NCBI GenBank assembly: GCA_030431525.1
Contig: JAUIJC010000010.1
Coordinates: 1 to 64,000, forward strand
Reading direction: 5' to 3'
Length of the DNA: 64,000 bases
Origin: Bacteroidia bacterium
GTDB taxonomy: Bacteria; Bacteroidota; Bacteroidia; Cytophagales; JAAEPT01
This document shows positions 303 through 31,917 of the stretch, piece by piece. Position numbers and translations under genes: made by a program. How positions within the stretch are numbered: the first letter of the stretch is position 1; every line of letters begins with the position of its first letter. Under the pieces are notes generated by a model that worked only from the letters and a program-made list of their open reading frames with translations, did not search any database and was not told the origin of the DNA.

Positions 303-764
303 CTACGCAAACCAAACCTGTACTAAGTCATTCTTCTCTTTCACTGCAATCTTGGAGAGTTTAACTAAATCAGTAATTGCTTTTTCAACCATGGTTGAAT
401 CTTCTACTATTTTGTCAGAAAGATTGTTGTACCACTTTTTAGCAATGCTGTGAACATCATTTCCAGAACAGCTTGCAATCAGGTTCTTTAGGGAGTCTTT
501 CAAGCAAAAATTCCCTTGGTCTGTTTTAGCAAAATAGTATTCCTCAGCATTCAGGTTGTCTTCCAATTGGTTTTTATCCAACTGGGTTATAAAGATCTTA
601 AAAAGATGGTTTAACTCATCTGGTGATATATGGATGTCAAAATCTGAAAACGCTCCATGGTCTTCCAATTCTTCCAAGACTGAAAAATCCTCATTGGCAA
701 CTGCGCCAACAATCTTGTCTTTATCTCCTATATAAAACTTTGGTGTTAATCGCATTGTTTTCAA
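303..764 (-). CDS. Unknown 153-aa soluble protein next to PARIS-like pair
   Basis: I do not recognise this protein. It is acidic, has no signal peptide or membrane segment, and looks mainly helical in its second half, with two cysteines close together in a segment reading FCLKDSLKNLIASC. It starts 50 nt after the stop of the DUF4435 gene, on the same strand, and shares its AT-rich composition. The gap contains a hairpin with a T run, so read-through or its own promoter would be needed for expression. The same hairpin type follows its stop. An accessory, regulatory or immunity-like role for the neighbouring module is possible from position alone; nothing in the sequence proves it. Confidence 0.6.
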   Translation of the reverse strand: MKTMRLTPKFYIGDKDKIVGAVANEDFSVLEELEDHGAFSDFDIHISPDELNHLFKIFITQLDKNQLEDNLNAEEYYFAKTDQGNFCLKDSLKNLIASCSGNDVHSIAKKWYNNLSDKIVEDSTMVEKAITDLVKLSKIAVKEKNDLVQVWFA

Positions 765-805
765 GAAAAAAGGCGCAAGTCTTTGCTGTCGCTTAGACTT
801 GCGCC
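763..805 (-). terminator. Hairpin terminator after DUF4435 gene
   Basis: Arms 772-782 and 795-805 (GGCGCAAGTCT and complement) make a perfect 11-bp stem with a 12-nt loop; on the minus strand it runs into a T-rich tract (763-771). It lies 9 nt past the stop of the TOPRIM-like gene and immediately before the start of the next gene. It is homologous to the hairpin at 207-243, with coordinated differences in the loop. Confidence 0.7.
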
Positions 806-814
806 AGTGGGGGG

Positions 815-1681
815 TTAGGTGTTTTTTGGATATTTATTATCCATACATTGAAACAAATCATACTGCTTTAATGAGTTTATTTCAATCGATGAAAAAAAAG
901 CTCTGGTGAAAGATTTAATATTGAAGCTATAAGTGTTTTTAACTTTTTTTATAAGTAGGAAAAATAATTCAATAAAATCTTTGCCATGAACGAATAAGCG
1001 CACTTCATTATGTTCATCATACTTTTCTCTGACCATGTTTATTTCTTCTAAAAACCTCTCTTTATTGGGAAGAGCACTATTTTTGGATAAAAATTTTGTT
1101 AAAATATCTTCAGGTGAGTATGTGAAATTTGATTCCTTGAATTTCACTATTTTGTCTAGTTCTAACATTTTGTAGCTTCTATCAATAACCTCTCTTGAGT
1201 ATCTTAAGGCGAATAGTTCAAGTAGCAGGTTCTGCATTATCTTAATAATTTTTTCGGCTTCAAGTGGGAAATTTTTTAAGCCAATTTTCAAAAACTTATT
1301 AATAGAAGATTCATTAAATAAGTACATTTCCAAATTCGCAAAGTCTGTATATTTCAGATATGATCTTTTAATTGTAGTGTCATTAATAGTGTCAAAGTCT
1401 CTATCTACAATAAACATTATATGAGGTAATTTATCACCGATTTTGTTTGTGATAAATTCATTGAGAAATAATACTTTTTCTTTATTTGAGTATAATTCAT
1501 TACCATTTGTTTCTGAGAAATCTACATTATCAATTGGTATCACATTAACTTCATTTGACTCTAGATAGATTTCAAAAATGTTTACCTCTTCTGGTCCTTC
1601 AACATATATATCTTTGAGATCTGGCTCAATCATATACAATGCTTCAATTTCTATTACTTTTCGTAAATATTCTTTCTCCAT
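815..1681 (-). CDS. DUF4435 TOPRIM-like protein (AriB-like)
   Basis: A 288-residue protein with the hallmarks of the DUF4435/TOPRIM fold: a first acidic motif VEGPEE at residues 27-32, a DxD motif VDRDFD at 92-97, and a following NLEMYLF element at 116-122 that is typical of DUF4435. In known systems such TOPRIM proteins are metal-dependent nucleases kept in check by an ABC-type ATPase partner; in PARIS the pair is AriA (ATPase) and AriB (DUF4435). Here the start codon lies directly after the stop of the ATPase gene with no spacer, so the two are almost certainly co-translated. The low GC contrasts with the icmF gene next door and suggests horizontal acquisition. Family assignment is from motifs I can see; the PARIS role is inference from the gene pair. 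An OLD-like or other overcoming-lysogenisation module is the main alternative. Confidence 0.72.
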   Translation of the reverse strand: MEKEYLRKVIEIEALYMIEPDLKDIYVEGPEEVNIFEIYLESNEVNVIPIDNVDFSETNGNELYSNKEKVLFLNEFITNKIGDKLPHIMFIVDRDFDTINDTTIKRSYLKYTDFANLEMYLFNESSINKFLKIGLKNFPLEAEKIIKIMQNLLLELFALRYSREVIDRSYKMLELDKIVKFKESNFTYSPEDILTKFLSKNSALPNKERFLEEINMVREKYDEHNEVRLFVHGKDFIELFFLLIKKVKNTYSFNIKSFTRAFFSSIEINSLKQYDLFQCMDNKYPKNT

Positions 1682-2989
1682 CTACTCTTCTAATTTTGTG
1701 ACATTTTTAGCATTAGGAGCTAGTAATTCAATGGAGTGTGTCGCTATAATAAATTGCACAAAATTATTTGAACTAAATTTTAGTAGTGTTTTGAGTAGGT
1801 TTCTTTGCCACTTAATGTTTAAAGAGATTTCAGGTTCGTCTATAATGAAAATTGTAGCTTGATCCGTTGCTGTAATTGTATTAATGAACAGTAAAAGCAG
1901 TTGTTTTTCTCCCGAAGAAAGCAAATCTACATCTAAGCATTCGCCTGAATCATGATAAACTTTAAACCCTTGGTTGAGATCAAAAGAAACAGATTTGTTT
2001 GTGTAGAATGAGTTTATAGATTTGACGAAGTCATTCAAAATTTCGTACAGGTTATTAAGTGCTCCAATTCTTGCCTTAGTGCTGTTGATAAATAGATGTA
2101 AAATGCTTGGTATAGCTTCTTTTCTCTTTTTAATTCCAGAAATGGCTTTCCGAATTTCAATAAAATCGGTTTTGCCTATGAGGCCAAACTTTGCAAGTTG
2201 TGAGCTTTGCTCTTCTAGTAATTCAAGTTCTTTTAAAAGTATAGATAGTGTTGGTATTTTTCCTGAAGGTTTATTTATATTCTTGATTAAGTCTGAAAAA
2301 ATATCTACAGTTGTCGATTCGCCTGTCTTTGAGCTGGAGATGACTTGTTTTCTAATCCAATCAATGAATCTTTCTAAAGTTAATTCTAATGAGAGTCGTT
2401 TTTCATTTAATCTTTTCTTAGTTGTAATCCTTTCATACTTTCTTGATAGTTCAATATTAGAGGAAGAGAATTCGAAATCGTTATCATGATCAGAAGATAA
2501 CTCGCTATTGAGAGTTTTTCTATCATCTGAAAGGAAATATATGGATATGTTTAAACTTCTAATGTAATCTAATATTTTTCGAAACTCTTTATCATCCTCA
2601 GATCCTTGATCTAGTGAGATATTATGACCATCATATGTCGTTAAGTGTAACTTATGAATATATCTTCCGTTTTTCTTAATATAGTATGTATATGGTCCAT
2701 ATATACTCTTATCACGAAAGGTCCCAATTTCGATGCCATTTGTAAGTGAAATTGCAAATTTTTCAAATTTAGTTTGCGCTAGTTTGGACTTATATCCGCT
2801 TTTAATTTTGGTCGATAGTATGTAGAAAATTAAGTTTAAAACTGTTGTCTTTCCTGAACCATTATCTCCATATAAAATAAAAAGTTTACTTAACTCCTTT
2901 TCGTTCTTGTCTTTAGGTAGAGTATAGTTGTAGTAGCCAAAGAGCTTTTTTACAGTAATTGATTTTATGCTTATTTGTTGAGTATCCAT
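1682..2989 (-). CDS. ABC/AAA-type defence ATPase (AriA-like)
   Basis: A 435-residue SMC/ABC-like ATPase without membrane segments. Walker A is GDNGSGKTT (41-49), the ABC signature LSSGEKQ lies near 357-363, Walker B IFIIDEPE near 380-387, and the switch histidine is in IATHS (H418). The middle part (about 150-340) is a charged helical insertion as in AAA_15/AAA_21 and OLD-family ATPases. It is followed without spacer by a DUF4435 TOPRIM-like gene; ATPase plus DUF4435 is the make-up of PARIS, in which the ATPase senses phage anti-restriction proteins and releases the nuclease. Size and order fit. The start MDTQQ is preceded by AT-rich sequence without a clear Shine-Dalgarno site. Whether it is PARIS proper or a relative cannot be decided without comparison. 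Confidence 0.75.
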   Translation of the reverse strand: MDTQQISIKSITVKKLFGYYNYTLPKDKNEKELSKLFILYGDNGSGKTTVLNLIFYILSTKIKSGYKSKLAQTKFEKFAISLTNGIEIGTFRDKSIYGPYTYYIKKNGRYIHKLHLTTYDGHNISLDQGSEDDKEFRKILDYIRSLNISIYFLSDDRKTLNSELSSDHDNDFEFSSSNIELSRKYERITTKKRLNEKRLSLELTLERFIDWIRKQVISSSKTGESTTVDIFSDLIKNINKPSGKIPTLSILLKELELLEEQSSQLAKFGLIGKTDFIEIRKAISGIKKRKEAIPSILHLFINSTKARIGALNNLYEILNDFVKSINSFYTNKSVSFDLNQGFKVYHDSGECLDVDLLSSGEKQLLLLFINTITATDQATIFIIDEPEISLNIKWQRNLLKTLLKFSSNNFVQFIIATHSIELLAPNAKNVTKLEE

Positions 2990-3181
2990 TTATTTTCGGT
3001 TCTGTGTAATACATTTTCGAATTGTGCCTAACAGTTGTATAAACGCTCCCATGGCGCTTAGTCACCCTTATAGATGACATTGTGAATATACCCCTAATAG
3101 CGTCTGTGAACAAATTATGAGGTATGAGTGCGTTTAAATTCAAGGATATTTTTTGAAATCTCCTTTTTTGACTCAAAACAC

Positions 3182-29625: not shown

Positions 29626-30039
29626 ATGAGTAGTATGATGGCTAAAAAACGACAGGATGTTCTGTTCTTGGCTCTACTGGGGATTTGTGTATTATTGATT
29701 TTTATAGTGGCTGCTCCAGCAAGAAATTATATCCCTATTATTTGGGGTTTTTTAGGGTTTGGTGTTCACTCTGTTTTGTTTATCAAAACATCATGGGATT
29801 TAAGCGCCTTTTTAATTGATGACCACAGTAGAGAGTTGGAACGGTTAAAAATTAGTTACCATAAAAGTAGGTTTAAGAAAGAGGTTAACTTGTTTGATCT
29901 ATTTCAAGAGAGGGAAAAGATAGAGTTAATTTCTCCTCAGGTAAAATCACAGCTTTCATTATTTCGTCATCGGTTTAAATTAGCTGCTATATCATTTCCC
30001 ATGATAATAGCACTTGCCTTACTCACAATATTCTTTTGA
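29626..30039 (+). CDS. Small two-to-three-helix membrane protein, unknown
   Basis: A 137-residue protein of unknown function. Hydrophobic segments are VLFLALLGICVLLIFIVAA and the overlapping IPIIWGFLGFGVHSVLFI near the N-terminus, and AAISFPMIIALALLTIFF at the C-terminus. In between is a charged cytoplasmic or periplasmic loop (RELERLKISYHKSRFKKE...FQEREKIEL). An alternative start three codons in (MAKKRQD) is equally possible. It is AT-richer than typA. No operon partner; the downstream region is the duplicated pdhB fragment on the other strand. Confidence 0.6.
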   Translation: MSSMMAKKRQDVLFLALLGICVLLIFIVAAPARNYIPIIWGFLGFGVHSVLFIKTSWDLSAFLIDDHSRELERLKISYHKSRFKKEVNLFDLFQEREKIELISPQVKSQLSLFRHRFKLAAISFPMIIALALLTIFF

Positions 30040-30067
30040 GTTTTTAAAAGCATTTGATTTTTATCAC

Positions 30068-30096
30068 AAAAAAATCCCCGCCTCATCAGAAGCGGA
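30068..30096 (-). terminator. Terminator, duplicated copy of the pdhB terminator
   Basis: AATCCCCGC and GCGGAGATT pair around a 10-nt loop; on the minus strand a T run follows. It is an almost exact copy of the hairpin at 30884-30912. Each copy has one mismatch at a different place, in each case of the wobble type. Confidence 0.7.
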
Positions 30097-30123
30097 GATT
30101 TTCTATTTCTACAGTAAGTAATC

Positions 30124-30215
30124 TTACCTGTAAAGTACGCTTTTAATCACCTTAACGGTCTTGTCAATGTTAGGAAGGATCTTATCGATCGATGTAAGGT
30201 GGATGGCAATTGAAT
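30124..30215 (-). pseudogene. Truncated duplicate of the 3' end of pdhB
   Basis: On the minus strand this stretch translates, in frame to a TAA at 30124-30126, to DKILPNIDKTVKVIKSVLYR. That is the same as the last residues of pdhB (DEILPNVDKTVKAIKSVLYR) with a few substitutions. The nucleotide match continues through the stop and downstream of it, covering the terminator. The offset to the true pdhB end is exactly 816 bases. Upstream of about 30215 the similarity ends. The fragment has no start codon and is a remnant of duplication or recombination. Confidence 0.85.
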
Positions 30216-30263
30216 AGATGCTGAGTAGGTTTATGGAAGAAGTTTAGGGGCTTGGAAATTGGT

Positions 30264-30824
30264 CTACCAATTAGCGTCATTTTTAAAGCATTCAATAGGC
30301 ATTTTTTTCTTTATATATACCTCGATATAGGGTGAGCGATTATGGATGAACATGGTGTCTCCACTAAATGAAAAATGTCCTTTTTTTATGCCGTAAGCAT
30401 GACGGCCATTTCCTGTGCCTGAAATACGAGAAAATTTATCGAATTGGATCAAATTGTCTTTTAAATAATAGACACCTCTAATTCCAGAATTTAATGGGTT
30501 GAAATAATTACAGTCTTGGTTTCTCTTAAAGATGAAAAATTCATTAAACCTACCATTTGCGTAGAACCGAAACATGAAATAGCCTCTTTCTTCTTTATCT
30601 GTTAAGTGGTGGATGATGCCATTATATTTGGATCCAAACTCTTCATAATAGACTGTGGTGTCAATTATATTTAGTAGTTCGGGTGTGAACAGGGAGACAT
30701 TTGAAAATATTTTGTTTTCTACAGGAACTACTGTTGTACCATTTTGAAGAGTGTAGTGCTTTACTCCACAAGAGGAAATTTCAATTAAGATTAATGTAAT
30801 GAAGAGTGTTATTCTGAGTGACAT
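30264..30824 (-). CDS. Unknown lipoprotein flanked by pdhB 3'-end repeats
   Basis: A 186-residue protein that I do not recognise. The N-terminus is a lipoprotein signal (LFITLILIEISSCGVKHY). The remainder is Phe/Tyr/Asn-rich and probably beta (YFMFRFYANGRFNEFFIFKRN), with cysteines near residues 105 and 179. It is AT-rich compared with pdhB. It lies between the authentic 3' end of pdhB plus terminator and the duplicated fragment, so it was either inserted there or caught up in a tandem duplication. Its stop is about 50 bases before the remnant. Confidence 0.7.
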   Translation of the reverse strand: MSLRITLFITLILIEISSCGVKHYTLQNGTTVVPVENKIFSNVSLFTPELLNIIDTTVYYEEFGSKYNGIIHHLTDKEERGYFMFRFYANGRFNEFFIFKRNQDCNYFNPLNSGIRGVYYLKDNLIQFDKFSRISGTGNGRHAYGIKKGHFSFSGDTMFIHNRSPYIEVYIKKKMPIECFKNDANW

Positions 30825-30883
30825 ACAAAGTCAATTTTTTGAGGTGATTAGCTATCAAGTTTTTGTTTGTCTCTATTAACATA

Positions 30884-30912
30884 AAAAAAATCCCCGCCTC
30901 ATCAGAAGCAGG
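30884..30912 (-). terminator. pdhB terminator
   Basis: AATCCCCGC pairs with GCAGGGATT (one wobble pair) around a 10-nt loop, with a T run on the minus strand, 28 bases past the pdhB stop. Duplicate at 30068-30096. Confidence 0.75.
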
Positions 30913-30939
30913 GATTTTCTATTTCTACAGTAAGTAATC

Positions 30940-31917
30940 TTACCTGTAAAGTACGCTTTTAATCGCCTTAACGGTCTTGTCAACGTTAGGAAGAATCTCG
31001 TCGATCAAGGTAGGAGCGTAAGGCAATGGAACGTCCTTGCTCACGACACGTTGAACTGGAGCGTCCAAGTAGTCGAAGGCGTTACGAGAAACGTGGTAGG
31101 CAATCTCAGAAGAGATAGATGCCAATGGCCAAGCTTCTTCAAGAACAACCAAGCGGTTAGTCTTTTTCACGGACTCAACAACCGTTTCGAAGTCGATAGG
31201 ACGAACGGAACGCAAGTCGATCACCTCAACGGAGATGCCTTCACCTTCAAGCACCTTAGCGGTCTCGTTGGCGATTTTCATGAACTTACCGAAGGAAACC
31301 AAGGTCACGTCTGAACCTTCTTTCACCACGTCGGCAACGCCGATTGGAATCAAGTACTCACCTTCCGGAACTGGTCCTTTGTCGCCGTACATCAACTCAG
31401 ACTCCATGAAAATAACTGGGTCGTCGTCACGGATGGCAGACTTCAACAGGCCTTTGGCGTCAGCTGGGTTAGAAGGAACAACCACCTTCAATCCAGGAGT
31501 ATTGGCGTACCAGTTCTCAAAGTTTTGAGAGTGCTGTGAGCCAAGCTGTCCAGCGTTACCCGTGGCACCACGGAAAACGATAGGGCAGTTGTACTGTCCA
31601 CCGGACATGTATTTCATTTTGGCGGCGCTATTGATGATTTGGTCAATGGCCACCAAAGAGAAGTTAAACGTCATGAACTCGACGATAGGACGCAAGCCAT
31701 TCATGCTGGCGCCAATGCCGATACCTGCGAAACCAAGTTCCGCGATAGGAGTGTCGATCACACGCTTGGGGCCGAACTCATCAAGCATTCCAAGGCTGAC
31801 TTTGTAGGCGCCATTGTATTCAGCTACCTCTTCACCCATCAGGAACACGTTCTCGTCCCTGCGCATCTCCTCGCTCATGGCTTCCCTGAGCGCTTCGCGA
31901 AATTGAATCTCTCTCAT
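30940..31917 (-). CDS. pdhB: Pyruvate dehydrogenase E1 component, beta subunit
   Basis: A 325-residue thiamine-diphosphate enzyme subunit of the two-chain E1 type; with the alpha subunit it decarboxylates pyruvate and reductively acetylates the E2 lipoyl domain. Diagnostic segments are MREIQFREALREAMSEEM, the TPP-contacting MGEEVAEYNGAYKVS, ERVIDTPIAE-like RVIDTPIAELGFAG, FMTFNFSLVAIDQI, and the C-terminal VPLPYAPTLIDEILP. The ATG at 31917 fits the family start; a start seven codons upstream also exists. The alpha subunit and E2/E3 are not in the window. Its 3' end and terminator are duplicated 816 bases away. Confidence 0.93.
   Translation of the reverse strand: MREIQFREALREAMSEEMRRDENVFLMGEEVAEYNGAYKVSLGMLDEFGPKRVIDTPIAELGFAGIGIGASMNGLRPIVEFMTFNFSLVAIDQIINSAAKMKYMSGGQYNCPIVFRGATGNAGQLGSQHSQNFENWYANTPGLKVVVPSNPADAKGLLKSAIRDDDPVIFMESELMYGDKGPVPEGEYLIPIGVADVVKEGSDVTLVSFGKFMKIANETAKVLEGEGISVEVIDLRSVRPIDFETVVESVKKTNRLVVLEEAWPLASISSEIAYHVSRNAFDYLDAPVQRVVSKDVPLPYAPTLIDEILPNVDKTVKAIKSVLYR

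Follow-up and report, generated by a model that had tools for sequence, protein, structure and literature searches.

A probable divergent PARIS-family (AriA-AriB) module in a Bacteroidota genome

Two adjoining genes lie on the minus strand near the start of the window, by which we mean the whole 64,000-nucleotide stretch that was analysed (Table 1). The ATPase gene comes first in the reading direction, and its stop codon touches the start codon of the gene for the 288-residue protein (TAGATG). The first-pass annotation had described a 435-residue ATPase directly followed by a 288-residue protein, and the open reading frames at 815-2989 confirmed this arrangement and supplied the strand, which the annotation had not given. 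Stretches without a stop codon reached at most 151 codons in 500 first-order simulations of this region, as compared to the observed 435 and 288, so the reading frames are not due to chance. Both genes are also conserved as a pair in four other genomes.

The GC content of the two-gene module is 29% (27% for the ariB-like gene and 31% for the ariA-like gene), compared with 55% for the neighbouring icmF and 46% for the whole window. Other 2.2-kb stretches of the window had a mean GC content of 46% and a minimum of 39%. The icmF gene encodes a fused isobutyryl-CoA mutase with B12-binding, MeaB and MM_CoA_mutase domains; it was found in most order-level relatives at 57-73% identity, which is too distant for a comparison of the junction. 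Of the earlier proposal that this is an AT-rich acquired module, the composition was borne out, and acquisition is indicated by composition and patchiness only. Based on its low GC content and patchy distribution, the module is probably mobile. Elsewhere in the window, a dip to 34% GC (30001-31000) contains an ORF of 186 codons without a Pfam match and is possibly another recent insertion.

A scan of the gap that should hold the promoter revealed no consensus promoter that stood out, and the matches were no more than expected by chance. At the other end of the module, the probable terminator directly 3' of the ariB-like gene has an outer stem of 11 bp (GGCGCAAGTCT/AGACTTGCGCC), and a T run follows it on the gene strand. 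The RNA fold of this element was -23.6 kcal/mol, and its loop is too long for a simple terminator scan. Each of the two 50-nt hairpin elements is a probable minus-strand terminator. The assembly contains no further copy of their stem motif, so a genome-wide REP family was rejected. An integron/attC origin was also rejected: no integron integrase was detected at the cut-off, and the elements, with their T runs on the gene strand, look like terminators. The paired hairpins may reflect a duplicated terminator or an exchange of the cassette type. The orphan ORF downstream of the ariB-like gene was rejected as a third component, as a search of 58 related genomes gave no homologue and the other four gene pairs have no such gene beside them. 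Window position 1 is also the end of the contig, which cuts off the left context of the module.

Table 1. Features of the module, its flanks and one further ORF of the window.
Feature	Positions	Strand	Description or basis
ariA-like gene	1682..2989	(-)	435-aa ABC-type ATPase, presumed sensor and cage
ariB-like gene	815..1681	(-)	288-aa TOPRIM (DUF4435-type) protein, presumed nuclease effector
AT-rich gap between icmF and ariA-like gene	2990..3181	(-)	should hold promoter; sequence reading
Probable intrinsic terminator	770..806	(-)	directly 3' of ariB-like gene; repeat search, RNA fold
Two 50-nt hairpin elements	207-256 and 767-816	(-)	78% alike; after orphan ORF and after ariB-like gene
Orphan ORF	303-764	(-)	153 aa, GC 36%, no clear family; downstream of ariB-like gene
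ORF in GC dip	30264-30824	(-)	186 aa, no Pfam match

The sequence motifs that the first-pass annotation had listed for both proteins were all located in the translations. In the ATPase, these are the Walker A motif GDNGSGKTT (residues 41-49), the LSSGE signature (357-361), the Walker B motif IFIIDEP (380-386, with E385) and the switch histidine, H418. The published rule for PARIS requires that AriA pass AAA_15 at 32 bits or AAA_21 at 27 bits (PMC9122126). The ATPase cleared both thresholds, at 60.1 and 72.7 bits, respectively. An AriA profile search, which had been proposed as a check, gave AriA as the best PADLOC model for this protein (8.8e-28). In a phmmer search of the PDB with the ATPase alone, AriA ranked first at 2.8e-19, followed by a retron ATPase at 1.8e-5. 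In a profile hmmsearch of the PDB, AriA matched over residues 8-431 at 1.5e-24, and a retron ATPase was again next, at 4.6e-7.

The predicted structure of the ATPase was of moderate quality (pLDDT 67). Using this model in a Foldseek search of 350,542 chains, ranks 1 to 15 were all AriA chains, the best at 1.6e-17. The structural Z score against AriA (8v46_A) was 23.8 over 364 residues, compared with at most 14.6 for the heads of SMC, Rad50, condensin and PtuA. Identity to the E. coli AriA is only about 20%. Based on the sequence and fold searches, the ATPase is grouped with AriA and not with SMC, RloC, OLD or PtuA. Membership of an SMC, RloC or OLD subgroup, which had been named beforehand as the finding that would speak against PARIS, is thus not what either type of search returned. 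Separately, phrog_7507, a phage protein family of PHROGs without an assigned function, matched the ATPase over its full length (2.8e-40), which suggests that the family comprises phage-borne AriA-type ATPases.

The second protein carries the motifs VEGPEE (residues 27-32), VDRDFD (92-97) and NLEMYLF (116-122). Searched alone, it had no significant match in Pfam, PADLOC, NCBIfam or PHROGs, including PF14491 (DUF4435) and the PADLOC AriB model. The published rule requires at least 27 bits to DUF4435 for AriB, and the protein missed this threshold, with no PF14491 match at E values up to 1. This cut-off is a detection threshold and not a biological criterion. The link to AriB comes through the relatives of the protein and through a profile built from the window protein and four relatives. 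Against all PDB sequences, AriB was the only significant match of this five-sequence profile (E 3.6e-4), and in the alignment E26 of AriB is paired with E28 of the window protein. In AriB, E26 is catalytic, as E26A mutants are inactive (PMC12409363). Members of the family matched PADLOC AriB at 5.6e-12 and PF14491 at 5.3e-9; three clade members matched PADLOC AriB, and the orthologue from genome G084 (49-50% identical) cleared the PF14491 cut-off at 35.5 bits.

When the clade profile was compared by hhalign with a set of ten AriB-type proteins, drawn from plasmids, phages and further Bacteroidota, the result was 98.5% with a score of 110.4. In the controls, the best of 100 column shuffles scored 20.1 and the reversed profile 20.2. 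An alignment of 14 AriB-type proteins shows no variation at E28, D93 and E118 and almost none at D95, T112 and G233. The structural model of the second protein, built from a three-sequence alignment, was poor (pLDDT 56, with the TOPRIM part under 50) and had no Foldseek match at E ≤ 0.001. Weak side matches to DUF3226 and OLD-like_TOPRIM were found among clade members. Judged from sequence, the second protein belongs to the AriB-type TOPRIM proteins and has every acidic ligand position. The first-pass assignment to the DUF4435 TOPRIM proteins was accordingly upheld through orthologues and profile comparison and failed as a direct match to the DUF4435 or AriB models. The absence of TOPRIM metal ligands, which would have counted against it, was not observed: E28, D93, D95 and E118 all align.

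The four relatives of the pair came from a Saprospiraceae MAG, a Planctomycetota MAG and genomes G084 and G306. The pair thus recurs in three further Bacteroidota and in a single planctomycete, with the ATPase gene directly upstream in 4/4, and identity among the conserved pairs falls to 20-34%. In the AriA tree, the five ATPases formed one clade (support 100/99), which a long branch separates from the other members, including E. coli AriA. The family is rare: the Bacteroidota sample gave matches in 4 of 395 genomes and the class draw in 3 of 395, and in both draws the weakest matches are doubtful fragments. Relatives of the second protein were absent from the phages, plasmids and viral contigs searched. 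In those plasmids and phages that were opened, the gene next to the nearest ATPase outside the clade was either annotated as DUF4435 or was a similar, unannotated gene, and the unannotated gene aligns with AriB. In the Saprospiraceae MAG (L006, 2377-9387), the pair is flanked by a RhuM gene on one side and, on the other, by a cluster that contains Fic and a split YhcG, the latter consisting of DUF1016_N and a PDDEXK nuclease; this region is likely a defence or mobile island. In G084 (L009, 501-1401, minus strand), the pair is followed by two small orphan genes without Pfam matches. These differ from the orphan of the window, so the genes 3' of the pair are variable.

The window pair shares with E. 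coli PARIS (8ux9, 8v45-8v49) an ABC ATPase followed, in the same order, by a TOPRIM protein of DUF4435 type. The sizes are similar (435 and 288 residues here; 464 and 308-316 in the PDB chains), the AriA fold extends over the whole length, and the catalytic glutamate, the DxD motif and the third glutamate of AriB are shared. The two systems differ in that AriA identity is low, the window AriB falls below the DUF4435 and PADLOC cut-offs, and the window genes abut (TAG|ATG). Neither K60 nor K64, the tRNA-contacting lysines of E. coli AriB, is preserved in the window pair. The K64 column holds Tyr in the window protein and Tyr, Lys, Asn, Phe or Arg within the clade. The tRNA set of E. coli PARIS, which includes tRNA-Lys, -Thr and -Asn, and its trigger should therefore not be carried over to this pair.

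Fused AriAB proteins, such as one in the same genome, have the same two domains in the same order, but they are single chains that fall clearly within existing models. Septu and retron PtuAB also combine a related ABC-type ATPase with a nuclease partner; however, that nuclease is HNH, whereas the window partner is an AriB-type TOPRIM protein, and the similarity of the ATPases is much weaker. The pairing of an ABC ATPase with a TOPRIM nuclease is common to OLD and the Gabija protein GajA as well, yet these are the best match of neither window protein. OLD and GajA are fused ATPase-TOPRIM proteins, and Gabija adds a UvrD-like partner.

The AriA match, the AriB-type profile, the aligned acidic residues and the recurrence of the pair in the clade together identify a divergent PARIS module, in agreement with the initial reading of the locus as PARIS or a close sister. 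We consider it very probable that the window pair is a two-gene abortive-infection module of the PARIS family, from a divergent clade, whose likely mode of action is caging, release and tRNA cleavage. In E. coli PARIS, a hexameric AriA ring sequesters AriB, and an anti-restriction protein such as Ocr binds AriA (PMC11455837). The known trigger is such an anti-restriction DNA mimic, and the released AriB dimerises and cleaves host tRNAs (PMC11455837, PMC12409363). The same scheme is the best reading for the window pair because the ATPase motifs and the acidic TOPRIM positions are intact and the pairing is constant. By analogy with the studied systems, the AriA ring would assemble and hold AriB inactive until a phage protein binds AriA and AriB is released. 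The freed AriB would then dimerise, with a predicted two-metal TOPRIM site composed of E28, D93/D95 and E118, and nick host tRNAs, such that translation and phage growth would stop.

Among the alternatives, one overlaps with this interpretation, as it assumes the same family membership and differs in the trigger and the target. The pair would be an AriA-AriB relative with the same cage-and-release logic that responds to another trigger and acts on another nucleic acid, which could be another tRNA set, another RNA or, as in OLD/GajA, DNA. We rate its chance at somewhat below even. The separate, long-branched clade (100/99), the absence of the tRNA-gripping lysines of E. coli and the weak DUF3226 and OLD-like_TOPRIM side matches are in keeping with such a shift. 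Nevertheless, the two proteins have their strongest relatives in AriA and AriB rather than in OLD or Gabija, and target choice is not readable from sequence.

It is extremely unlikely that a Septu/PtuA, SMC/RecN or OLD-type ATPase lies by chance beside an unrelated gene. PADLOC and NCBIfam do list PtuA and ABC matches for the ATPase, whose fold is common to the heads of Rad50, SMC and PtuA, but AriA ranks above PtuA (2.8e-19 vs about 1e-5; Z 23.8 vs ≤14.6). Moreover, the partner is a TOPRIM protein with conserved acidic residues and not HNH, and the gene pair is kept across phyla. A housekeeping or addiction (toxin-antitoxin) module without a role in defence is also very unlikely, even though Cran1, an archaeal member of the OLD family, has a cell-cycle role (PMC12796447). 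The pair is rare, patchy (4/395 and 3/395 in the two draws) and very AT-rich; the RhuM/Fic/YhcG surroundings of the Saprospiraceae copy are those typically seen in mobile or defence islands; and either gene of E. coli PARIS can be deleted without toxicity (PMC9122126).

The fused AriAB of the same genome (G000:C73:10266-12224, minus strand; 652 residues) lies between two cobW-type genes and scored 8.7e-109 against PADLOC AriAB and 27.7 bits against DUF4435. It is a second PARIS, of a lineage separate from that of the divergent window module. Two further loci of the host genome encode N6 adenine methyltransferases that belong to type I-like restriction systems, and these systems could be the first line that PARIS backs up. 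Tentatively, the window pair may represent a distinct PARIS subtype of Bacteroidota and Planctomycetota that is invisible to AriB models, senses another phage signal and cleaves other tRNAs, giving the cell two differently tuned alarms.

The pair is an expected addition to PARIS and not a new kind of system, and its novelty is modest. Its value is moderate, as present AriB models miss its nuclease and the host also has a fused PARIS. The finding extends PARIS to a divergent branch in which, for this genome, neither the published DUF4435 rule nor PADLOC detects the nuclease gene. For this reason, counts of PARIS in environmental Bacteroidota and Planctomycetota are probably too low. The pair, only about 20% identical to its E. 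coli counterparts, provides a useful comparison for the trigger-sensing surfaces of AriA and the tRNA-choosing residues of AriB, and the co-resident fused AriAB makes this genome a natural example of a cell with two types of PARIS.
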